Part shown: piece after piece, positions 9,135 to 47,730 of the stretch
Layout: every line of letters begins with the position of its first letter
Position numbering within the stretch: position 1 is the first letter of the stretch
Source: Boseongicola aestuarii
Lineage (GTDB): Bacteria > Pseudomonadota > Alphaproteobacteria > Rhodobacterales > Rhodobacteraceae
DNA: 64,000 nt
NCBI RefSeq assembly: GCF_900184815.1
Contig: NZ_FXXQ01000004.1
Location: 1 to 64,000, forward strand
Reading direction: 5' to 3'
Notes under the pieces: generated by a model
Databases searched by the model: none
What the model saw: the letters and a program-made list of their open reading frames with translations, nothing else
Told to the model about the DNA's origin: nothing
Position numbers and translations under genes: made by a program

Positions 9135-10326
9135 AGCGTTCTCCTGAAATTGCCCGTGCCGAAATATATGTCGACCATTTGTTCATTAGTTGGCGACGTT
9201 TCTCAAGTAAGTCCGACCGTGCGTACGCGCGCTCGACCTCTGAACCCACCTGATGCGCTAATGCCGCCTCGGCCAGTTCTCGTGGTGCATTTGCATCTTC
9301 CGCTGACCAATCGCGAAAGCTGCTTCTAAATCCGTGTACGGTAAATCCATTCGCATCCATCCGACGGAGCAGCATAAGCATCGACATATTTGAGAGCGGA
9401 TGGTGACGCTTTTGTCCTTCAAACACAAACACTGAGTCCAATGCTTTCAAAGGTTCAAGAATTGCCAGCATCTCTTCGGTCAAAGGCACCCTGTGCGCCT
9501 TGCCACCCTTCATACGCTCAGCTGGCACCGTCCAGAGCTTGGCGTCAAAATCCACTTCCGGCCACTTCATCTCGAGAACTTCAGACGTACGACTTGCCGT
9601 TAGAATGGTGAACCTCAGCGCCTTGGCGGCCATTGCGGGTCGTGGAGCAAGGCTGGTATAGAAGGCAGGTACGTCCCGCCACGGCATAGCGTCGTGGTGG
9701 TGAACCTTCGCCCGGACGGTCGGCAGAACCTTGGCGTCCTTAATTGCCGTCACCGGGTTCTCACCTGAGCGAAACCCCTTGGATTTGGCCACATCAAGAA
9801 CCGTCTTGATGCGCTGCGCCAGCCGCCGCGCGGTTTCGTGCTTCTCGGTCCAGATGGGAGACAGACACATCAACACTTCGGGTTGGCCAATACTATCAAC
9901 CGGCATCCGGCCAATTTTGGGGAATGCATAGTCTCGGAGATTGTTCAGCCAGATTTGGCCATGCTTCGCGCTCTTCCATGTGGGCAGCCGGTCTATGTGA
10001 ACTTGTCGGCTGACTTCTTCGAACGTTGGGATTTCGCGATTGGCATTGAAACGTGGGTTAAGGCCGGATTTGGCCATGCGGCGATACTCCAACGCCCGTT
10101 CGCGCGCCTGGTTCAGAGTGACTACGTCTGCCCCGCCCAAACCAAAGTCCGTGCGCAACGGTGCTCCTTTGCGGTTCTTCTGACCTTTGACCGTGACGCG
10201 AACAATCCAGCGCCGTGCCGCGCTCTCCGTGGCATCAACAACCAAATAGAGACCGCCCCCATCGCCATGACGACCGGGACCAAGATTTTCGACCAGCTTT
10301 TTCGTAAGCTTCCCAGTTAGGGCCAT
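9127..10326 (-). CDS. tyrosine recombinase, P4-type integrase
   Basis: A 399-residue, full-length protein. The N-terminal DUF4102-type arm-binding domain (GDGGGLYLVVDATESAARRWIVR) is followed by the core-binding domain (about 100-200) and the catalytic domain with Arg246 (TASRTSEVLEM), His331-x-x-Arg334 (HGFRSSFRDW), His358 and the nucleophile Tyr368 (VERAYARSD). The catalytic set appears complete, so the enzyme is probably active. It starts 150 bases beyond the 3' end of tRNA-Glu and points away from it, the usual layout of tRNA-inserted islands. Confidence 0.95.
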   Translation of the reverse strand: MALTGKLTKKLVENLGPGRHGDGGGLYLVVDATESAARRWIVRVTVKGQKNRKGAPLRTDFGLGGADVVTLNQARERALEYRRMAKSGLNPRFNANREIPTFEEVSRQVHIDRLPTWKSAKHGQIWLNNLRDYAFPKIGRMPVDSIGQPEVLMCLSPIWTEKHETARRLAQRIKTVLDVAKSKGFRSGENPVTAIKDAKVLPTVRAKVHHHDAMPWRDVPAFYTSLAPRPAMAAKALRFTILTASRTSEVLEMKWPEVDFDAKLWTVPAERMKGGKAHRVPLTEEMLAILEPLKALDSVFVFEGQKRHHPLSNMSMLMLLRRMDANGFTVHGFRSSFRDWSAEDANAPRELAEAALAHQVGSEVERAYARSDLLEKRRQLMNKWSTYISARAISGERFV

Positions 10327-36804: not shown

Positions 36805-37809
36805 TCAGACCTGTTGCCTTGCCATTCGCTCCAGCACATCGACGCCTTGCGTTTTCATCCAGTGCAGCATGTCGATGAAAACCCAGTTCTCTGCCAGTTT
36901 TGCGTCCCGGCGCAGGTAAATATCCACCACGCGAAACTCGGTCTTCTGCCCCTGCGAAGACGGCATTCCCAGGAATCCGCCTTCATGCACTGCCTGAAAA
37001 TTCGGCCAGCCAAAGAACCCGCCAAAATGCCCCTCGGCCAGTCGCGCCAGATGTCCGGTTTTCGTGCGATCCTTGAACGCCGCCCGAAACGGCCCCGAAT
37101 GCTGCTTTGCGTAACGCTCGATCGTGTAGGTCGCGCCGATCCCCTCGGGGCCCCACCAGATCATGTCGTCATGCCATGTGCGGGCCAGTTCTTCTTCAAG
37201 CGGCACCCCAAGGTTCCATGTCCCCAAGTCACCTATCATCGCGTTAATGGTTCTTAACGTTGCCGTTCCCTCGGCTTCGGGCGCGTCTTCAAACAGTAAA
37301 CCATTATGCGAAATCGGCCCCGGTTGCACCAGATGCTGCGCCGTCGCGGGCGGGAAGGGCGACTGTCCTGCTTGCGTCATGATATGTGGAATATCGCAGA
37401 AGAACGCTGTCTCGACGATCCGCTCACTCTCCACGCGGTTGAATTCTGCATAGCGCAAAAAAGCCATTTTGCGCGTCGGGCGAATCCCCAGCCAGGGCGC
37501 ATCAAATAGCCCCATCAAATGCCCCATCGACACGACCCAAACGCCCTTGAATCCGTCAATCTCGTTGCGTCCGGCAAAGAAGATATCCTGTCGCCGTTGC
37601 ACGCGTGAGAATGCGCGCAGATACGGCTTCCAGAAGGTATCTGCGACGGCTTCGGCACCGCTGTGTACATTGAACGGATGCACGCCCCGCCACGTCCAGT
37701 CGGGTGCCACGCGCGCGCTCAGGACCCCGGAGACATCTTCAGACGTCGCACGAGACAAGACCTCGTAATGCGCCAATACAACGGCCTTTTCGGCCTGAAA
37801 TCCGGACAT
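36805..37809 (-). CDS. double SnoaL-like (NTF2-fold) protein
   Basis: A 334-residue protein with two NTF2-fold halves: about 10-160 (LAHYEVLSRATSEDVSGVLSARVAPDWTWRGVHPFN...GLFDAPWLGIRPTRKMAFLRYAEFNRVESERIVET) and about 190-330 (HDDMIWWGPEGIGATYTIERYAKQHSGPFRAAFKDRT...GGFLGMPSSQGQKTEFRVVDIYLRRDAKLAENWVFIDMLHWMKTQGVDV). SnoaL-type proteins catalyse aldol, cyclisation, dehydration or isomerisation steps without cofactor. It lies 8 bases after the permease start side of the ABC operon on the same strand, as its last gene. Paralogous domains are at 42497 and 46762. Confidence 0.85.
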   Translation of the reverse strand: MSGFQAEKAVVLAHYEVLSRATSEDVSGVLSARVAPDWTWRGVHPFNVHSGAEAVADTFWKPYLRAFSRVQRRQDIFFAGRNEIDGFKGVWVVSMGHLMGLFDAPWLGIRPTRKMAFLRYAEFNRVESERIVETAFFCDIPHIMTQAGQSPFPPATAQHLVQPGPISHNGLLFEDAPEAEGTATLRTINAMIGDLGTWNLGVPLEEELARTWHDDMIWWGPEGIGATYTIERYAKQHSGPFRAAFKDRTKTGHLARLAEGHFGGFFGWPNFQAVHEGGFLGMPSSQGQKTEFRVVDIYLRRDAKLAENWVFIDMLHWMKTQGVDVLERMARQQV

Positions 37810-37817
37810 TTTTATCT

Positions 37818-38699
37818 TTAACCCTTAACCGCTCCCGCTGTCAGACCGCTGACGATCTGGCGCTGGAAGAACAGGATCAATACAAACAACGGCGCGGTCG
37901 CAGACACAACCGCTGCCACCGCGAACATCACGTTGCCCTCTTCGAATGTAGACCCAAGGAAGCTGGCAATTTTCGGAACCATCGTTTGATTTTCCTGGCT
38001 GAGAAGCATCGCCGTCACGGCGAAATCGTTATATGCCAAAAGAAAGCTGAACAGCCCTGTCGTGATGACGCCCGGCCACATGACTGGAATGATCACATAC
38101 CGAAACGCCTGAAAACGGGTGCATCCATCGACCATCGCGCTTTCGTCCAGGTCTTTGGGAATATTCAGAAAAAACGAATGCAGCATCCACAGTGTAAACG
38201 GCTGGTTGATCGCAACCAAAACGATGATGGACGTGGGCAAATGCCCCCAGACATTCCACTCGAAAAATGGCAGCAGATAGCCTGAAACCAGCGTGATATG
38301 CGGCATCGCCCGGAACACCAGCGCAATCATAAGCAGCCAAAACGCATAGCGGTATCCGGACCGCGCCAAGGCATATCCTCCCAGCGTTCCGAACGTGAGA
38401 GAGATGATGACCGTGAAGAAAACCACGATGAACGTGTTCAGCGAAGCGCGCCAGAACTCCTGATCGATCCATGCGCCCGAGTAGGCGTGAGTGGTAAACG
38501 CATCTCCCGTTTCCACGATTGTACGCGTCCCCCAAAGCGCATTCGTCCAATCCGCTTTCGAGAAGAAATCGCCCTGCACTTTGAATGAACCCCAAAGGGT
38601 CCAAAGGAACGGGAACGAGGCGATAATGACCCAGAGGATCACGAAACCCGTGGCGAATATTGCCAGCGTCGGCGAGCGCTTCATTGCTGCGGATGCCAT
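37818..38699 (-). CDS. carbohydrate-type ABC transporter permease (MalG-like)
   Basis: A 293-residue inner-membrane protein with six membrane segments and the EAA loop DLDESAMVDGCTRFQAFRYVIIPVMWPGVITT near 190-220. It starts three bases after the stop of the MalF-like gene. It pairs with that permease, the ATPase at 41308 and the binding protein at 39790 to form one importer of the CUT1 (sugar/glycerol-phosphate) class. Confidence 0.93.
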   Translation of the reverse strand: MASAAMKRSPTLAIFATGFVILWVIIASFPFLWTLWGSFKVQGDFFSKADWTNALWGTRTIVETGDAFTTHAYSGAWIDQEFWRASLNTFIVVFFTVIISLTFGTLGGYALARSGYRYAFWLLMIALVFRAMPHITLVSGYLLPFFEWNVWGHLPTSIIVLVAINQPFTLWMLHSFFLNIPKDLDESAMVDGCTRFQAFRYVIIPVMWPGVITTGLFSFLLAYNDFAVTAMLLSQENQTMVPKIASFLGSTFEEGNVMFAVAAVVSATAPLFVLILFFQRQIVSGLTAGAVKG

Positions 38700-38702
38700 C
38701 GC

Positions 38703-39731
38703 TCAGGTCCTCTTTCGATTGAAGTCGCGCCAAGTCCGGATCAGCACCGGCGTCAGCAGAATGGCCACGCCGATGATCGTCAGAATCGACGTCGCGGCGG
38801 CCGAGTTGAACCGTGCAATATCGCCGCGCAAGTCCGCGAAAATGATATAGGACAGTGACGTCGCATTGGCCGATGCGGAAAAGCCGACGATCGGTTCAAA
38901 CACGCGGAAGTTGTCCATCAGCTGGATCAGCGTGATAAAAACGACCAACGGCATCAGATAGGGCACCACGACGTATCGCACCCGCTCCCAACGGCTGGCC
39001 CCGTCGACCATCGCGGCCTCCAATGTGTCTTCCGGCACGGTCTGCAAGCCTGCGTAAAACACCACAAAGGCAAAGGGTGCCGAACTCCAAACGCCATAAA
39101 CGATCAGCGTTATCCATGTCAGCGCGGGCGAAGCTTTCAACGACAAATCGGGGTCGTCGAACAACACTTGCAGCGTCTTTCCGATCACCCCTTCGGCGTC
39201 GATCATCCAGAACAGGATCAGCGATCCAATCAGCGGCGTGATGATCATCGGCAAGAGCGACACGAAGATCGTCGGACCCTTGAACATCTTCGGCAAGGCA
39301 TTCACGCCAAGCGCAATCGCCAGCCCCAACAGGATGATCAGGGGCGTACAAACGAAAGTATAGGTTAACGTAAATGCCAGCGCCCGGTAAAACGGCAGGT
39401 TCATCACTTCGCTGACGAATGCCCCGAGACTCTCTCGCGTGGACCAGGCTTCGCCGATCTCGGATGTCGCCAGATGGCCCCGGTCGAAGTATGTGCCAAG
39501 CCCGTTGAAACGGCCAAGAGGCTCGGCCTCGCGGATGGCAGCAGTTGCGTCGTTATCGATAATCGTTTCGGTTTCACAGCCGAAGGGACCGCAGTTTTCG
39601 ACCTCGATCAGGACTTGTTCGTGTTCGATGAAAAGGGACTGAAACGCCACCGAGACAATCGGCATGGCGATGAACAGAAACATCGCGGCCAGTGACGGAA
39701 AAATGAACCAAAAGAAGGTCTTATGCGGCAT
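38703..39731 (-). CDS. carbohydrate-type ABC transporter permease (MalF-like)
   Basis: A 342-residue protein with an N-terminal membrane helix (FWFIFPSLAAMFLFIAMPIVSVAFQSLF), a periplasmic loop with CGPFGCETETI (two Cys), then five further helices and the EAA motif DTLEAAMVDGASRWERVRYVVVPYLMPLVVF near 230-260. The long first loop is unusual for this family. Upstream, a stable hairpin separates it from the binding-protein gene. Confidence 0.92.
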   Translation of the reverse strand: MPHKTFFWFIFPSLAAMFLFIAMPIVSVAFQSLFIEHEQVLIEVENCGPFGCETETIIDNDATAAIREAEPLGRFNGLGTYFDRGHLATSEIGEAWSTRESLGAFVSEVMNLPFYRALAFTLTYTFVCTPLIILLGLAIALGVNALPKMFKGPTIFVSLLPMIITPLIGSLILFWMIDAEGVIGKTLQVLFDDPDLSLKASPALTWITLIVYGVWSSAPFAFVVFYAGLQTVPEDTLEAAMVDGASRWERVRYVVVPYLMPLVVFITLIQLMDNFRVFEPIVGFSASANATSLSYIIFADLRGDIARFNSAAATSILTIIGVAILLTPVLIRTWRDFNRKRT

Positions 39732-39789: not shown

Positions 39790-41025
39790 TTACTGGAGAA
39801 AGCCTTGCTCTTTTGCTGCCGCCGTATAGGCCGCTTCAATGTCTGCCAGGGCTTGCTCGGCACTTTCACCGCCTTGCAGGAAGTCCGACAATTCGTCGCC
39901 CAAAGCCGAATGCATCAGGCCCATGAACGGGATCATCGGATAGGGGCGTGCGCCGGCCGAAGCCGTTGCGAAAACGCCGGTGGCAGCCGGGCCAGGCGTG
40001 AATCCGTCGGCCAGCCAGACCGCTGCATCGTTGTTGGCTGTGATCACTTCGGGGCGGATGCCGTTAACCATGGCGATAAAAGTCGCTTCGGCGTCTTCGT
40101 CGCTGATGTTGGCGGCAATCGTGAAGCCGTCCCACCACAGTGTCGACGCTGGCGTGTCGCCACCGCCGACGGTCGGGGCCGCGGCCAGAACCGTATTTGA
40201 CGTCACTTCCTCGGTCGAGCCTTCGTCATCCAGAATGCCCGAAGCGCGTGATCCCCAAAGCTGTGCAATCGCCACATCGCCGGCTTCCCAGATCGCGCCC
40301 GTCGCATTGGAATCGAACGTCAGGAAGTCGGGGTTCGACAAATCCGCTAACGCTTTCAACGTGTTCAGCGCCAAAATGCCGCTTTCGTTGTTGATCGCCG
40401 GTTCAGCCGTTCCCGGTTTGAAAAAGGACGCGCCCGTGCCCGTGTACATGTTGACGAATTCTTCCCCGAGGTTCCATCCGGTCTTTGAATTCATCGCAAA
40501 CGGATGCTCCATCAGGCCTGCGTCCCGTATCGCCTGACCGGCTGCAATCACCTCTTCATACGAAGAGGGCACTTCAAGCCCGGCTGCGTCCAGAATATCC
40601 TGACGCACATAGAGGTGCTGCGCGTTCGCCATGAAGGCTATCGCCATGACCTTGCCGTCGATGGTAATCTTCTGTGTGTCCTTGATCCCTGCGCCATACT
40701 TGGCGATCAGATCATCAAGTGGCCGGATCAGCCCTTCGTTCAGCAACGGAACAATGGACGAGTTCGCGACGATGGCCGAGGTGTATTGCGCCGGGTTCGC
40801 CGTCAAGGCGGCGACCTGAATGTCGCGATGTTCGGTTGTCAGGTTGCTTTCGATCGTCACCGTGGACGACGCACATTCCTTCGCGCCTGCGACCAGCGCC
40901 TGAATGGCGCCGAACTCGTTGCCAAGGATGTTCACGTTGCCGCTTGCGATCCCGCAATCGGCATATGCGGTCGATCCCATCAGCACGATGGCTGCGGATG
41001 CCGCGGTCGTTTTGAAGAAGTTCAT
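39790..41025 (-). CDS. carbohydrate-type ABC transporter substrate-binding protein
   Basis: A 411-residue protein: signal peptide NFFKTTAASAAIVLMGSTAYA, then family-1 extracellular binding protein features (VNILGNEFGAIQALVAGAKEC; IVANSSIVPLLNEGLIRPLDDLIAKYGAGIKDTQKITIDGKVMAIAFMANAQHLYVRQDIL; LWWDGFTIAANISDEDAEATFIAMVNG). The ATG at 41025 is preferred because the frame from 41052 would put nine residues before the signal. Its ligand is unknown. First gene of the minus-strand arm, expressed from the operator-bearing region at 41053-41307. Confidence 0.92.
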   Translation of the reverse strand: MNFFKTTAASAAIVLMGSTAYADCGIASGNVNILGNEFGAIQALVAGAKECASSTVTIESNLTTEHRDIQVAALTANPAQYTSAIVANSSIVPLLNEGLIRPLDDLIAKYGAGIKDTQKITIDGKVMAIAFMANAQHLYVRQDILDAAGLEVPSSYEEVIAAGQAIRDAGLMEHPFAMNSKTGWNLGEEFVNMYTGTGASFFKPGTAEPAINNESGILALNTLKALADLSNPDFLTFDSNATGAIWEAGDVAIAQLWGSRASGILDDEGSTEEVTSNTVLAAAPTVGGGDTPASTLWWDGFTIAANISDEDAEATFIAMVNGIRPEVITANNDAAVWLADGFTPGPAATGVFATASAGARPYPMIPFMGLMHSALGDELSDFLQGGESAEQALADIEAAYTAAAKEQGFLQ

Positions 41026-41140
41026 GGTCAAAAGACCCCCCTGTTTCTCCACCTTTGATGATCAAAGGCCGTTGTTTTTTGGTCGGCCCTGCAGCCGGTC
41101 TGCACTTGGTGCAGCGCAACGGACGCGAATCGCAAGTCCA

Positions 41141-41156
41141 TTGCATACGATTGCAA
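41141..41156. promoter_or_regulatory. LacI-type operator, site 1
   Basis: TTGCATACGATTGCAA. Half-sites TTGCA/TGCAA flank a CG centre. It is the exact reverse complement of the site at 41263-41278. It lies 116 bases upstream of the binding-protein start. The likely binder is the LacI protein encoded at 45743. Confidence 0.7.
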
Positions 41157-41262
41157 TTACACGTCATGAATGAGCCTCATGGCAAGAAAAAACTTGGTTT
41201 AGTTGCTAGATTTGGATCATAAAAGATTAACTCTTGCGCAGAATCGAGAATCCGAATTACGC

Positions 41263-41278
41263 TTGCAATCGTATGCAA
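41263..41278. promoter_or_regulatory. LacI-type operator, site 2
   Basis: TTGCAATCGTATGCAA, 30 bases before the GTG start of the ABC ATPase gene. The centre-to-centre distance to site 1 is 122 bases, which would allow a repressor tetramer or two dimers to loop out the divergent promoters between them. Confidence 0.7.
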
Positions 41279-41307
41279 AATGAAAACGTCGCACAGGGGG
41301 AAACGCC

Positions 41308-42363
41308 GTGGCCGAGGTTCAGCTCCGTAATATCAACAAGCGCTGGGGCGATTTCGTGGGTGTCGAGAATTTCGACCTGACAATTGCCGATCGTGAATTC
41401 CTCGTTCTGCTCGGGCCTTCGGGATGCGGCAAGACGACGACGATGCGGATGATCGCGGGACTTGAGGATGCGACAGAGGGCGATATCCTGATCGACGGCA
41501 AGCGCGTCAACGATCTTGACCCGAAAGACCGCGACGTCGCGATGGTTTTTCAAAGCTACGCGCTCTATCCGAACCTCGACGTCTACGAGAATATCCGTTT
41601 CCCGCTGAAGGTCCGCAAGGTCGACCCGGCCACCCATGACGCTGCTGTCATGCGGGCTGCCGAAATGGTCGAACTGACCGAATTCCTCCACCGTCGCCCG
41701 GCGGAATTGTCCGGCGGTCAGCGCCAGCGCGTCGCGCTTGCCCGCGCCATCGTGCGCCAGCCGAACGTATTTCTGATGGACGAGCCACTGTCTAATCTCG
41801 ACGCGAAATTGCGCGTGTCGACCCGTGCGCAGATCAAGAACCTCAGCCACGAACTGAAGGTCACCACGGTTTACGTCACCCATGACCAGATCGAAGCCAT
41901 GACCCTTGCCGACCGCGTTGTCGTCATGTCGCGCGGAGTCGTGCAGCAGGTGGGAACACCCACCGAAATCTACGACAAACCCGCAAACACCTTCGTCGCC
42001 AGCTTCATCGGTAACCCCGCGATGTGTCTGATGGACGGGACGCTGACCAACGGTGTTTTCGAGGGCAAGAACGTCCGGATCGAGGGCCTTCCCACGCATC
42101 ACAATGGCCCCGTCACGCTTGGGTATCGGGCCGAAGACGCAAGTCTCGCCGACAGCGGCGCCATCACCGCGCCGATCTACTCGCTCGAACTTCTGGGCGA
42201 CGCGACGATGGTCACCGTCAGGGCCGGTGGTGCGATGGTGTCGATAAAGGCGCACAAGGATTACCGGGCGGAAATCGGAGATCCCGTGACCGCAGATATC
42301 CCCGCCGGCATCTGCCATATCTTCGATGCGGCGTCCGGAAAACGCCTCGACGTTGCGGTGTAA
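41308..42363 (+). CDS. ABC transporter ATP-binding protein (UgpC/MalK type)
   Basis: A 351-residue protein: Walker A GPSGCGKTTTMRMIAGLE near 37, Q-loop FQSYALYPNLDVYENIRFPLKVR, signature LSGGQRQRVALARAIVRQP near 135, Walker B VFLMDEPLSNLDAKLR and the switch His in VTHDQIEAMTLADR, then a C-terminal MOP/TOBE regulatory domain from about 240. GTG start with CAGGGGGAA upstream. It energises the CUT1 importer whose other parts are on the opposite strand. Confidence 0.95.
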   Translation: MAEVQLRNINKRWGDFVGVENFDLTIADREFLVLLGPSGCGKTTTMRMIAGLEDATEGDILIDGKRVNDLDPKDRDVAMVFQSYALYPNLDVYENIRFPLKVRKVDPATHDAAVMRAAEMVELTEFLHRRPAELSGGQRQRVALARAIVRQPNVFLMDEPLSNLDAKLRVSTRAQIKNLSHELKVTTVYVTHDQIEAMTLADRVVVMSRGVVQQVGTPTEIYDKPANTFVASFIGNPAMCLMDGTLTNGVFEGKNVRIEGLPTHHNGPVTLGYRAEDASLADSGAITAPIYSLELLGDATMVTVRAGGAMVSIKAHKDYRAEIGDPVTADIPAGICHIFDAASGKRLDVAV

Positions 42364-42401: not shown

Positions 42402-42500
42402 ATGACCACATACGACTTCATAGTGGTCGGCGACGGGTCCGCAGGTTGCGCAGTTGCGGTCCAACTCGCGACGCACTTCAATTGCGAGGACGCAACATGA
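42402..42500 (+). pseudogene. N-terminal stub of a GMC-family oxidoreductase
   Basis: A 32-codon frame encoding MTTYDFIVVGDGSAGCAVA... then VQLATHFNCEDAT and a stop. This is the FAD-binding start of GMC (choline/glucose dehydrogenase-type) enzymes, D-(F/Y)-I-V-V-G-G-G-S-A-G-x-V-x-A, with one Gly changed to Asp. The rest of the roughly 530-residue enzyme is missing. The stub runs directly into the SnoaL gene, whose ATG overlaps its stop (ATGA) and whose ribosome site lies in it, so the stub may persist as a leader peptide. Confidence 0.75.
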
Positions 42501-42982
42501 GCCTTGATCCCAAATCCGCAGAAACCCTCGCTGTCGTGCGCCGCATGGAAGCGGGGCTTGCGGCAAACGAAAACGACATGACGCAATACTTCCACGAGGA
42601 TTTCCTGTGGCGCGGCAATCAGGGCTGCGGCACGAAAAATGGCGTCGAGGCCTTCCGGAACAACTGGCAGCTTCCCTTCCGTGCCGCCTTCACAGACCGC
42701 GATTACATCACCGAAAAGTTCATGGCCGACGGCGAATGGGCCTCGTGTTTCGGCCACATCGAGGCCACGCATTCCGGCACCTTCATGGGCATCCCCGCCA
42801 CCGGAAAGCGCGTGCGCATCCCCTATATGGATTTCTGGCGTGTCGAGGATGGCCGGATTGTCGACAATCCCGTTTCTGTCGATTTTGCAAGTGTTCTCAT
42901 GCAGTTAGGTGTCGATATCTTTGACGGAAAGGGCTGGGAACACTACGACAGTGGCGCCGCCACGCCCCCGAAACCCGAATGA
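42497..42982 (+). CDS. single SnoaL-like (NTF2-fold) protein
   Basis: A 161-residue protein: MTQYFHEDFLWRGNQGCGTKNGVEAFRNNWQLPFRAAFTDRDYITEKFMADGEWASCFGHIEATHSGTFMGIPATGKRVRIPYMDFWRVEDGRIVDNPVSVDFASVLMQLGVDIFD, a full SnoaL fold with the usual G-I-P-x-T-G-K-x-V and W-R-V-x-D-G-R-I-V blocks. The ATG at 42497 has GAGGA upstream; the longer frame from 42446 lies in the GMC stub. Its FRAAF-(T/K)-DR block recurs in the 36805 protein. It is followed after 25 bases by the HisD-like gene. Confidence 0.88.
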   Translation: MSLDPKSAETLAVVRRMEAGLAANENDMTQYFHEDFLWRGNQGCGTKNGVEAFRNNWQLPFRAAFTDRDYITEKFMADGEWASCFGHIEATHSGTFMGIPATGKRVRIPYMDFWRVEDGRIVDNPVSVDFASVLMQLGVDIFDGKGWEHYDSGAATPPKPE

Positions 42983-43007
42983 CTGATCCAGATCAGGACC
43001 TAAACCA

Positions 43008-44318
43008 ATGACCATCACACATTTGAAATCCGGTAAGCCCGAAAGCGAGCGTGCCGAAGATGACGCCAAGGTCCGCGCCATTGTCGAGACCACTTTGAAA
43101 GACATCGAAACACGTGGTGATACCGCCATTCGTGAACTCTCGGCCAAATTCGACAAATACGAGCCCCCAAGCTTCCGCCTCACCGCTTCCGAGATCGAGG
43201 CCGCGGTGCAAAAGGTCAGCGCGCGCGACATGGACGATATCAAGTTTGCCCAATCGCAGATCCGCACCTTTGCTCAGGCCCAACGCGCTTCGATGACCGA
43301 TATCGAGGTCGAAACCCTGCCCGGTGTGATCCTCGGCCATAGAAACATCCCCGTGCAGTCCGTCGGGTGCTACGTCCCCGGCGGCAAATTCCCGATGGTC
43401 GCCTCCGCGCACATGTCCGTCCTGACCGCGTCGGTTGCGGGCGTGCCGCGCATCATCGCCTCTGCGCCGCCGCAGAACGGCGCGCCGCACCCGGCCATCG
43501 TCGCGGCCATGCACATGGGTGGCGCACATGAAATCTACGTTCTCGGCGGTATGCAGGCCGTCGGAGCCATGGCGATCGGCACCGAAACCATCGACCCCGT
43601 CCACATGCTTGTCGGCCCTGGCAACGCGTTCGTAGCGGAAGCAAAACGCCAGCTTTACGGCCGCGTAGGCATCGACCTGTTCGCCGGCCCGACCGAAACC
43701 ATGGTCATCGCCGACCACTCAGTCGACGCCGAACTTTGCGCCACCGACCTTCTTGGACAGGCCGAACACGGCTACAATTCGCCTGCTGTTCTTCTGACAA
43801 ATTCCGAAAAACTCGCTCGCGAAACTCTGGCCGAGATCGACCGCATTCTCGACATTCTGCCGACCGCCGAAACCGCCCGGACGTCGTGGAACGACTACGG
43901 CGAGGTCATCGTCTGCGACACCTACGACGAGATGCTGGAGGTCGCCAACGACATCGCCTCCGAGCACGTTCAGGTCATGACCGACCGCGACAACTGGTTC
44001 CTTGAAAACATGCACAGCTACGGCGCCTTGTTCCTCGGGCCCCGCACGAATGTTGCCAACGGCGACAAGGTGATCGGCACAAACCACACGCTGCCCACCA
44101 AAAAGGCGGGTCGATATACCGGTGGTCTTTGGGTGGGTAAGTTCCTGAAAACCCACAGCTATCAGCGCATAACCACGGACGAGGCCGCCACCACGATCGG
44201 TGAATACGGCTCGCGGCTGTGTATGCTTGAAGGCTTTGTCGGCCACGCCGAACAATGCAATATCCGCGTGCGCCGCTACGGCGGCAAAAACGTCGCTTAT
44301 GGAAAGGCGGCCGAGTAA
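43008..44318 (+). CDS. HisD-family NAD-dependent dehydrogenase, HpsN (sulfopropanediol 3-dehydrogenase)-like
   Basis: A 436-residue protein with the histidinol-dehydrogenase catalytic set: Gln251 and His254 (GQAEHG, zinc), Glu319-His320 (ASEHVQV, base), Asp353, His360 (GTNHTLPT) and His413 ([13 protein letters not shown], zinc). The family oxidises a primary alcohol to a carboxylate in two NAD steps. Its place in a LacI/ABC/SDR catabolic cluster and the C-terminal RVRRYGG resemble HpsN, which converts R-2,3-dihydroxypropane-1-sulfonate to sulfolactate, rather than biosynthetic HisD. That choice is an inference; the real substrate may be another polyol. Confidence 0.85.
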
Positions 44319-44322
44319 CACC

Positions 44323-44982
44323 ATGCCCAGACGCACCCCCGGCACCTATACTGGACTGGAAGACTTGGGCCGTGTGCGCCTGTCGCCCTACTTTTACATG
44401 CGCGATTTCCTCTATTCCGAGATCGGCAATTTCTTCGGCAAACCGAACCTGCCTGTTGACCCCGACCTTGCCATCGCCGCGGGCAAGAAGCTTTGCGCGG
44501 CCATTCTCGATCCCATGACCGAAACCTTTGGCCCTCTCCATATCCGCTCGTCCTATCGCTCGCCCGACCTCAACCACTTTGGCGCGACGGAAGTGAAACC
44601 GCAGAAATGCGCCCGAAACGAGGCCAATTACGCCGGTCACATCTGGGACATTCGCGACGCAAAGGGCCGCATGGGAGCAACCGCGTCAATCGCCGTGCCG
44701 TGGTTCGCCGACCAGTTCGAAAAGGGTCGCGACTGGCGCGATCTGGCATGGTGGATTCACGACCATCTGGACTACCACCAGCTTTATTTCTTCCCCAAAC
44801 TCGCGGCCTTCAACGTCACTTGGCGGCAGGCCCCCGAACGTTCGATCCTGAGTTACGTCGCGCCTCGGGGAAAACTCTACGCCGACGGGCAAATACCGCC
44901 CGAGCCTGCGAAAACCCGAAAAGCCCGCTACGCCGATTTCCCGCCCTTCAAGGGCATCTCCTACCCAAAGGTTGCCGCGTGA
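44323..44982 (+). CDS. unknown protein, M15 peptidase-like motif order
   Basis: A 219-residue protein. LSPYFYMRDFLYSEI opens it; IRSSYRSPDLNHFGATEV then GHIWDIRDAKGRMG (about 92-130) have the order S-x-YRSP...H-x2-D seen in M15/hedgehog-type metal peptidases, and HDHLDYHQLYFFPKLAAFNVTW (about 150-172) could give the third ligand. The usual S-x-H-x(6)-D spacing is not preserved, so the fold is only suspected. The ATG at 44323 lies 4 bases after the dehydrogenase stop; the end overlaps the SDR start. It has no signal peptide. Confidence 0.65.
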   Translation: MPRRTPGTYTGLEDLGRVRLSPYFYMRDFLYSEIGNFFGKPNLPVDPDLAIAAGKKLCAAILDPMTETFGPLHIRSSYRSPDLNHFGATEVKPQKCARNEANYAGHIWDIRDAKGRMGATASIAVPWFADQFEKGRDWRDLAWWIHDHLDYHQLYFFPKLAAFNVTWRQAPERSILSYVAPRGKLYADGQIPPEPAKTRKARYADFPPFKGISYPKVAA

Positions 44983-45743
44983 CATTACCCAAAACACCTT
45001 CCTTCCGCCTCGACGGCAAACGCGCACTTGTCGCCGGAGCTTCCTCTGGCATCGGTGAAGGCTGCGCCGTCGCCCTGGCCGAGGCGGGTGCGCATGTGAC
45101 TTTGGCCGCGCGTCGCGAAGAACCGCTGAACGCCTTGGCGCGCACCATGCGGGCCGCTGGTTTTGACGCTGATATCCTGCCGCTTGACGTTGCAGACATC
45201 GCCGCGACCGACGCCAAGGTCTCGGCCCATGGCCCGTTCGATGTGCTGGTGAATTCCGCCGGTCTTGCCCGTCACAGCCCCGCGCTCGACACGACGCCGG
45301 AAGATTACGACGCCGTGACTGATCTCAATGTCAAAGGCGCTTATTTCCTCACCCGCACCGTCGCGCGCGGATTGATCGAGGCAAGAAAACCCGGCAGCCT
45401 GATCAATATTTCCAGCCAGATGGCCCACGTCGGCGGCATCGACCGCGCTGTTTACTGTGCCACCAAACATGCGGTCGAAGGCTTCACCAAATCCATGGCG
45501 ATTGAGTGGGGCAAACGCGGCATCCGCGTCAACACGATCTGCCCGACCTTCATCCGCACCCCCCTTACGGCGCAAACCTTCGAGAATCCCGAACGGGTCG
45601 CTTGGATCGAGGAAAAGATCAAAATGGGCCGCGTCGGGGAAGTCACCGATATCATGGGTGCCGTCGCCTATCTCGCATCCGACGCCGCGGCGCTGGTCAC
45701 TGGCGCGTCCCTTTTGATCGACGGAGGCTGGACCGCGGACTGA
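44979..45743 (+). CDS. SDR family NAD(P)-dependent oxidoreductase
   Basis: A 254-residue classical SDR: cofactor loop ALVAGASSGIGEG near 17-29, LDVAD, LVNSAGLARHS (N-x-A-G), NISSQMAHVGG (catalytic Ser), YCATKHAVEGF (Tyr-x3-Lys near 156-160) and C-terminal ASLLIDGGWTAD. GTG start overlaps the preceding stop (GTGA). In the cluster it would oxidise a secondary alcohol before or after the HisD-like step, comparable to HpsO in sulfopropanediol degradation (inference). Confidence 0.93.
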   Translation: MTLPKTPSFRLDGKRALVAGASSGIGEGCAVALAEAGAHVTLAARREEPLNALARTMRAAGFDADILPLDVADIAATDAKVSAHGPFDVLVNSAGLARHSPALDTTPEDYDAVTDLNVKGAYFLTRTVARGLIEARKPGSLINISSQMAHVGGIDRAVYCATKHAVEGFTKSMAIEWGKRGIRVNTICPTFIRTPLTAQTFENPERVAWIEEKIKMGRVGEVTDIMGAVAYLASDAAALVTGASLLIDGGWTAD

Positions 45744-46765
45744 TGGCTCAGGGCAAGATCACCTCTCTCGATGTGGCACGACTTGCGGGCGTCAGTCAGT
45801 CTGCCGTCAGCCGCGTATTCACCAAGGGCGCTTCGGCCAGCCCCGCAACGGCCGCCAAAGTGAAAAAAGCCGCGCTTGAACTTGGCTATCGCCCCAACCC
45901 AATCGCGCGTGCCATGATCACCGGAAAAAGCCGGATCATCGGCCTTCTGGTGGCCTATCTCGACAATCAGTTTTACCCAATCGCGCTTGAACGCCTGTCT
46001 GCCGCCTTGCAAGAACGCGGCTACCACATTCTTGTTTTCATGGCGAAAAACTCAACCGACGGGATCGAGGAAATTGTGCAGGAACTGCTCGACTATCAGG
46101 TCGACGGCATCATCGCCGCCAGCGTTTCAGTGAACGGTGCCCTCGCTGAACGCTGCGCGGATGCAGGGATCCCGGTCGTCTTGTTCAACCGCGGGCAGGA
46201 TGGCTCGGGCCTGTCGACCATCACCTCCGCCAATGTCGAAGGGGGGCGCAAAGTCGCCGATTTCCTCGTCGCGGGCGGGCATAGGCGCATCGCCCATATT
46301 GCCGGGTGGTCGGGCTCCTCGACAGGGCGGGATCGCCAACGCGGCCTGACCGAAGGCCTTGCCGCGCACGGACTTGAGCCCACTCACATTATCGACGGCA
46401 TGTACAACCGCGACACGGCCGCCGGAGCTGCGCGCCAGTTGATGGCGCTACCGGATCCTCCCCATGCCATCTTCGTCGGCAACGATCACATGGCCTTTGC
46501 AGTCATGGACGTGATCCGCAGCGATATGGGCTTGTCGATCCCGGGCGATGTCTCGATTGTCGGCTATGACGATGTGCCCCTCGCGGCCTGGGCGGCCTAT
46601 GACCTGACGACAGTGCGCCAGCCCGTGAACCGCATGGTCGAAGCCACCGTCGAGACACTTCTGGGCGAAATAGATTCCGCTGACCGCCCGGGCCAGAAAA
46701 CCGCTATCGAAGGGCCGCTCATCCTGCGCGGTTCTGCAAGAAAACCAATAGGATCAATGCCATGA
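45743..46765 (+). CDS. LacI family transcriptional regulator
   Basis: A 340-residue protein. The DNA-binding headpiece reads ITSLDVARLAGVSQSAVSRVFTKGASASPATAAKVKKAALELGYRPNPIARAM (5-58) and the sugar-binding type effector domain 62-335 includes DYQVDGIIAASV, FVGNDHMAFAVMDV and VSIVGYDDVPLAAW. The start shares bases with the SDR stop (TGATG). The two matching operators at 41141 and 41263 have the symmetric CG-centred form expected for this family, so it most likely controls both arms of the cluster in response to the substrate. Confidence 0.94.
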   Translation: MAQGKITSLDVARLAGVSQSAVSRVFTKGASASPATAAKVKKAALELGYRPNPIARAMITGKSRIIGLLVAYLDNQFYPIALERLSAALQERGYHILVFMAKNSTDGIEEIVQELLDYQVDGIIAASVSVNGALAERCADAGIPVVLFNRGQDGSGLSTITSANVEGGRKVADFLVAGGHRRIAHIAGWSGSSTGRDRQRGLTEGLAAHGLEPTHIIDGMYNRDTAAGAARQLMALPDPPHAIFVGNDHMAFAVMDVIRSDMGLSIPGDVSIVGYDDVPLAAWAAYDLTTVRQPVNRMVEATVETLLGEIDSADRPGQKTAIEGPLILRGSARKPIGSMP

Positions 46766-47730
46766 AGGGCTTCTCGAACCGCTGGAAAGACTTCCCCGAC
46801 TATATCATTGGCATAACTAAGGAGATCTGGGAGGACCGGGGCGTCGCGACGCTGGATCACTACTACGCGCCGAACATACCCGTGCGCTCCCCCATGGGCA
46901 TCCAGCAAGGCAACCTCGCGGTCAAAGCCTCGACCATGGCGACGATCAACGAGTTCCCGGACCGCGAACTTCTTGGTGAAGACGTCATCTATTCCGACGA
47001 TCCCGAGCATGGGCTTTTGTCGTCGCACCGGCTTTTGACCAAAGCCACGCACACCCAAGACGGTCAGTTCGGTCCCGCCACCGGCAAACACTGGGTCGTT
47101 CGCGTCATTGCCGATTGCGCGGCGAAGAACGACACGATCTATGACGAATGGCTGGTGCGCGACTATGGCGGAATCGTCCGACAGTTGGGCATGAACCCGC
47201 GCGAATACGCCGCCGGTCTGATCGAAAGCGAAGGCGGTGCGGCGTCGGCGAAGAAACCCTTCACGCCGGGCGATGACGTCGAGGGTGACTACAAGGGACG
47301 CGGCAATGACAACGAATGGGGTGTGGCCTATGCCAACTCTCTCAACCGCATCATGGGTCACGACTTCAACCATATCCTGGCCGACTGGGACCGCGCGGCG
47401 ATTGGCGAATATCCCGGCGCGCAGACGGCGTATGGCCGCGATGAGATGGTGAAATTCTGGATCGGCCTCAGGGCGTCCTTCCCGAACGCGACGTTCAACA
47501 TTCATCACCAGATCGGCATGGACGCCGATATGCTCAGCCCGCGCGCGGCGGTGCGTTGGTCTTTGGATGGTCTGCACGAAGGGTGGGGGACTTTCGGCAA
47601 ACCGACCGGCGTTCCTGTCCACGTCTTCGGCATGAGCCACGCCGAGTTCGGCCCCTGGGGCTTGCGCCGCGAGTTCGCGCTTTTTGATGAGGTTGCGATC
47701 TGGAAGCAGATTCTGATGGCCGCGGCATGA
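46762..47730 (+). CDS. double SnoaL-like (NTF2-fold) protein
   Basis: A 322-residue protein with two NTF2-like halves: about 18-155 (KEIWEDRGVATLDHYYAPNIPVRSPMGIQQG...THTQDGQFGPATGKHWVVRVIADCAAKNDTIYDEWLVRDYGGIVRQLGM) and about 190-320 (ILADWDRAAIGEYPGAQTAYGRDEMVKFWIGLRASFPNATFNIHHQIG...FGKPTGVPVHVFGMSHAEFGPWGLRREFALFDEVAIWKQIL). It overlaps the LacI gene by four bases and is followed by a Rhodobacteraceae-type repeat, which marks the end of this transcription unit. A cofactor-free lyase or isomerase role is inferred from the fold. Confidence 0.83.
   Translation: MKGFSNRWKDFPDYIIGITKEIWEDRGVATLDHYYAPNIPVRSPMGIQQGNLAVKASTMATINEFPDRELLGEDVIYSDDPEHGLLSSHRLLTKATHTQDGQFGPATGKHWVVRVIADCAAKNDTIYDEWLVRDYGGIVRQLGMNPREYAAGLIESEGGAASAKKPFTPGDDVEGDYKGRGNDNEWGVAYANSLNRIMGHDFNHILADWDRAAIGEYPGAQTAYGRDEMVKFWIGLRASFPNATFNIHHQIGMDADMLSPRAAVRWSLDGLHEGWGTFGKPTGVPVHVFGMSHAEFGPWGLRREFALFDEVAIWKQILMAAA

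Follow-up and report, generated by a model that had tools for sequence, protein, structure and literature searches.

Predicted LacI-family operators on the back-to-back promoters of a Rhodobacteraceae importer cluster and a recurrent YGATTCG neighbor

Which regulator acts on two identical 16-bp sites set head to head between the arms of an importer gene cluster, and do the sites work together or each on its own? The question is raised by a 64,000-nucleotide stretch of the Boseongicola aestuarii genome, called the window here. The 282-bp gap between the gene for the solute-binding protein (SBP; ATG at 41025, minus strand) and the gene for the importer ATPase (GTG at 41308, plus strand) houses TTGCATACGATTGCAA at 41141-41156 (plus strand) and its exact reverse complement at 41263-41278. 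Sequence matching confirmed the description in a first-pass annotation of two CG-centered, exactly reverse-complementary 16-mers 122 bp apart (start to start and center to center); the LacI gene that it placed 4.5 kb off in the same cluster is there too, starting at 45743. By our own estimate, the chance of an exact inverted 16-mer pair within a few hundred base pairs is ∼1e-5. The palindrome in either 16-mer is imperfect, TTGCATAC.GATTGCAA, and relatives conserve a form that tends to TTGCATACGTATGCAA.

Table 1. Genes and predicted regulatory features of the importer cluster, in window coordinates
Feature	Position	Strand	Basis or remark
Double SnoaL-like protein	36805-37809	-	Pfam; gene order as in orthologs
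Importer permease	37818-38699	-	Pfam; gene order as in orthologs
Importer permease	38703-39731	-	Pfam; gene order as in orthologs
CUT1-type SBP, leading gene of minus arm	39790-41025	-	Pfam SBP_bac_1
CGATTCG element, inside predicted SBP leader	41126-41132	-	8 bp 3' of SBP-side operator
SBP-side operator (predicted)	41141-41156	-	Exact match; reads TTGCAATCGTATGCAA along SBP transcription
Putative SBP promoter	41156-41185	-	Sequence reading and CTTG conservation
Putative ATPase promoter	41234-41263	+	Sequence reading and CTTG conservation
Two GANTC (GAATC) sites in -35/-10 spacer of putative ATPase promoter	41241-41252	+	Sequence
ATPase-side operator (predicted)	41263-41278	+	Exact match; reads TTGCAATCGTATGCAA along ATPase transcription
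Importer ATPase (UgpC/MalK type), leading gene of plus arm	41308-42363	+	NCBIfam NF008653
SnoaL-like protein	from 42497	+	Plus arm
Sulfopropanediol/histidinol-dehydrogenase-like protein	43008-44318	+	Plus arm
Hypothetical protein	from 44323	+	Plus arm
SDR dehydrogenase	to 45743	+	Plus arm
LacI-family regulator, 340 aa, inside ATPase-side operon	45743-46765	+	Pfam LacI and Peripla_BP_3
SnoaL-like protein	from 46762	+	Plus arm; remainder of the arm spans 42497-47730

The genes and sites of the cluster are collected in Table 1. The ATPase scored 434.5 bits against NCBIfam NF008653, exceeding the cut-off of 432. The LacI-family regulator combines a LacI helix-turn-helix with a periplasmic-binding-protein-like domain and is encoded beside its putative targets; its closest NCBIfam models are of the RbsR/PurR type, with scores under their cut-offs. 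The HisD-family protein (43008-44318) matches the sulfopropanediol 3-dehydrogenase structures 8v35 and 8wwe (E, ∼1e-107) and matches true histidinol dehydrogenases far worse. The matches to 8v35 and 8wwe hint that the substrate may be a hydroxy-sulfonate or a polyol. Behind the ATPase gene, a 32-codon remnant of a GMC-type (choline-dehydrogenase-like) oxidoreductase, MTTYDFIVVGDGSAGCAVAVQLATHFNCEDAT, is found at 42402-42500 on the plus strand; a relative, locus L069, has in its place an open reading frame of ∼500 aa with a similar beginning.

The search for extra copies of the 16-mer that the first-pass annotation had proposed was run on the whole 4.0-Mb genome and returned these two sites as the only exact copies, the next-best site having 2 mismatches. 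A wider regulon was considered and rejected: sites elsewhere in the genome with 3 or fewer mismatches were not beside cluster genes, and relaxed searches gave results near background. Nothing relevant was found in the literature on the operator string or on the cluster. Elsewhere in the genome, positions 67955-67970 of contig C42 hold a perfect CG-centered palindrome, TTGCAACCGGTTGCAA, which probably serves a different LacI-family protein as operator.

To follow the sites across relatives, we searched 298 genomes of the family and fetched 80 orthologous importer loci, which were annotated by tblastn. The exact 16-mer was present in 21 of the 298 genomes, the window's own counted, while the reversed pattern, used as a control in the same genomes, gave 0 matches. 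The other 20 genomes together carry 22 exact copies, all of which adjoin genes of the importer cluster. Operator pairs were found in 25 fetched divergent loci from many genera, the window among them, and 10 further divergent loci were found independently by the operator pair alone; the latter served as a held-out set, and the two together make up the 35 loci referred to below. The divergent loci have the operator pair between ATPase and SBP. A second arrangement, where SnoaL is divergent from ATPase-SBP-permeases, has the paired operators 54 to 58 bp apart, flanking the ATPase promoter. An even palindromic operator with a conserved central CG is found upstream of orthologous targets, almost exclusively in intergenic DNA. 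The first-pass annotation had regarded missing sites upstream of orthologous importers as grounds for giving up its reading; the sites are present there, and the reading was not refuted.

The sites also vary with the regulator. The recognition helix of the LacI protein, SQSAVSR, is identical in 50 of 51 orthologs, in keeping with a constant operator, and diverged LacI proteins accompany diverged palindromes, such as TCGCATACGTATGCGA next to a 47%-identical LacI. When a site above random was looked for in L068, L075, and L088, loci without LacI, none was found. On the other side, only degenerate sites remain in a small number of loci that do have LacI (L117 and L118, for instance), which speaks against the assignment of the operators to LacI. 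Because the sites are conserved, covary with LacI, and are absent from the three LacI-less loci examined, they track the cluster and its LacI.

Some of the loci merit separate mention. At L069, the single LacI ortholog whose helix reads SRSAVSR goes with an operator at 9657-9672, TTGCATAGGTTTGCAA, in which the central CG is altered, a pairing that gives a hint of covariation at a single locus. In L062 and L063, a SAR324-labeled record carries the importer cluster twice, in nearly identical form and on separate contigs, the operators being diverged and the SBP ∼65% identical to that of the window; transfer or mis-binning would explain their presence in this record.

A strict sigma-70 consensus scan called no promoter. 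The two that we propose were instead read by eye and anchored on conservation. The putative SBP promoter comprises a -35 element TTGCCA (41180-41185), an 18-bp spacer, and a -10 element TGTAAT (41156-41161), and the putative ATPase promoter comprises TTGCGC (41234-41239), again an 18-bp spacer, and TACGCT (41258-41263); in both, the first T of the operator is the last T of the -10 element. CTTG occurs ∼30 bp 5' of the SBP-side operator in 29 of the 35 loci and ∼33 bp 5' of the ATPase-side operator in most of them (within -40 to -21 in 29 of 35). When loci were anchored on the operator, first 25 and then 35 of them, the two sides looked alike, with an A-tract at about -40, CTTGC at about -30, and a -10 element ending at the operator start. 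As read from these sequences, each operator would overlap the -10/start region of its own promoter.

The two halves of the operator are not equally conserved. The half turned toward the gene, GTATGCAA, is the better conserved; the other, weaker one is shared with the -10 element. On the SBP side, the downstream half GTATGCA is exact in 33 of 35 loci and outscores the upstream half in 28 loci, with the reverse in 0; on the ATPase side, it is exact in 26 of 35 and outscores the upstream half in 23, with the reverse in 6. The exact mirror relation of the two operators is not kept in relatives. The mirror-image look of the pair arises because each operator has the same orientation with respect to its own transcription unit, and the two units face apart.

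Comparison of the loci shows that the sites are conserved, specific to the cluster, and placed so as to overlap the promoters as read here, and it is highly probable that both 16-mers serve as operators for the LacI-family repressor encoded in the cluster, which would occlude two back-to-back promoters. We infer from this comparison the binding by the cluster LacI, the repression, the release by ligand, and the dimeric state. In our model, a leftward sigma-70-type promoter would drive SBP, both permeases, and SnoaL, and a rightward one would drive ATPase, SnoaL, the HisD-like protein, SDR, LacI, and SnoaL. Without inducer, a LacI dimer at each operator would shut out RNA polymerase independently, and the importer substrate or a catabolite would free LacI from the operators. 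Since lacI is itself one of the repressed rightward genes, negative autoregulation would follow. Of the interpretation in the first-pass annotation, the part that made the sites LacI-family operators of the same-cluster LacI on the importer arms most probably stands, and the looping that it predicted from their arrangement does not.

Looping would require a tetrameric (or dimer-of-dimers) LacI that bridges both operators and represses cooperatively, as with lac O1-O3. Two identical strong sites at a distance of ∼120 bp, for which the modal spacing of 121 to 126 bp is conserved, would suit such a bridge, as would those spacing outliers that lie about one turn from the mode (113 and 135), and small LacI loops form even with operators out of phase (PMC2553838). 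However, spacing over the 35 loci ranges from 113 to 148 bp, and about half of the outliers (113, 117, 119, 135, 146, and 148) are out of helical phase with the mode; 117, 119, 146, and 148 are not whole turns off it. With no clear phase in these loci, helical phasing was rejected as support for looping. The shorter spacing in the second arrangement also argues against a bridge, and the constant spacing is accounted for by two full promoters packed back to back. Moreover, the LacI protein aligns with PurR to within 10 residues of its C terminus, which leaves no room for the tetramer helix of E. coli LacI, and LacI and its orthologs (51 sequences in all) end like PurR. PurR is a dimer. Looping is in our judgment unlikely. 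Direct occlusion suffices, since each operator lies over the putative -10/start region of the promoter next to it: one dimeric, autoregulated repressor that sterically blocks two promoters is all that the arrangement calls for.

Nor does another LacI-family paralogue offer a persuasive explanation. At least 10 more LacI-family proteins are encoded in the genome, and one of them might share the sites, but the sites go with the cluster, and the cluster LacI has a constant recognition helix and, in its diverged forms, varies together with the site, so that regulation by a paralogue is quite improbable. That LacI acts here by activation, or in a dual role, is more doubtful still, for although some LacI-family proteins, e.g., of the PckR/FruR types, are known to activate (PMC4052901), the position of both operators over the putative -10/start region suits occlusion and not activation.

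LacI may not be the only input at the SBP promoter. The CGATTCG at 41126-41132 fits YGAKTCK, the extended motif (also given as TGATTCG) of the GcrA/CcrM DNA-methylation system, for which Caulobacter GcrA targets were defined as lying within 40 bp of the start (PMC7987155). Counted from our predicted start site, the element lies within that distance, and it is conserved in orthologs: YGATTCG stands 6 to 11 bp 3' of the SBP-side operator in 34 of the 35 divergent loci, compared with a frequency of 0.16% in random 24-bp stretches. Nine of the 10 held-out loci have it. The base 5' of GATTCG is C in 31 loci and T in 3; among all hexamers, GATTCG is by far the most recurrent, and its flanks showed no conservation in the aligned divergent loci. 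The element is missing in L151 and also in the degenerate-operator loci L082, L106, L117, and L118. On the ATPase side, 19 of the 35 loci have a GANTC in the promoter spacer, within the 45 bp ahead of the operator, and offset -18 is its usual place. Genes for GcrA and CcrM are both present in the window's genome.

Other evidence is less favorable. The intergenic enrichment of YGAKTCG in 464 kb of the genome, a weak test, was 1.49, within the control range of 0.72 to 1.92, and the ctrA promoters of Rhodobacterales are poor in GANTC (PMC8116508), which counts against GcrA. A small-RNA target or another regulator could also lie behind the YGATTCG pattern. It is therefore only tentatively that we propose that the SBP promoter is also wired to CcrM/GcrA methylation through YGATTCG, often with GANTC in the ATPase promoter spacer as well, such that uptake capacity across Rhodobacteraceae may depend both on substrate and on replication or methylation state. 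Apart from this element, the predicted SBP leader contains a perfect 17-bp hairpin, CCTTTGATGATCAAAGG, at 41052-41068, terminator-like on the plus strand; as a candidate conserved leader element it was rejected, being absent from the nearest relatives.

The operator pair itself is an ordinary local LacI regulon of known type, in a cluster for nutrient uptake in a marine bacterium. Its value is that it defines a conserved regulon of Rhodobacteraceae with exact operator and promoter geometry, an aid in identifying what substrate a widespread importer-dehydrogenase cluster acts on. The most interesting part of the locus is the YGATTCG neighbor, which the first-pass annotation did not contain. If it is a GcrA/CcrM site, it would tie the import of nutrients to cell-cycle DNA methylation, and this in bacteria for which one study suggested little role for methylation in gene control (PMC8116508).

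The closest parallels are the LacI-family local regulons that RegPrecise lists for sugar/catabolic clusters with divergent transcription, in which 16-bp CG-centered palindromes lie 30 to 140 bp upstream of start codons and autoregulation is typical (PMC4052901); our locus shares these palindromes and their placement, a putatively autoregulated regulator within the cluster, and one site per divergon arm. With E. coli lac O1/O3 it shares two operators for one repressor, ∼100 bp apart, one of them over a transcription start. It differs in that each operator here would serve its own promoter, the cluster repressor is without the tetramerization helix of E. coli LacI, and operator spacing varies among relatives. 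With the GcrA/CcrM promoters of Caulobacter (PMC7987155, PMC3667746) it has in common a YGATTCG within 40 bp of the predicted start and the genes for GcrA and CcrM. Most of the known Caulobacter targets are genes of the cell cycle, replication, and division, whereas the candidate target here is an importer predicted to be repressed by LacI.
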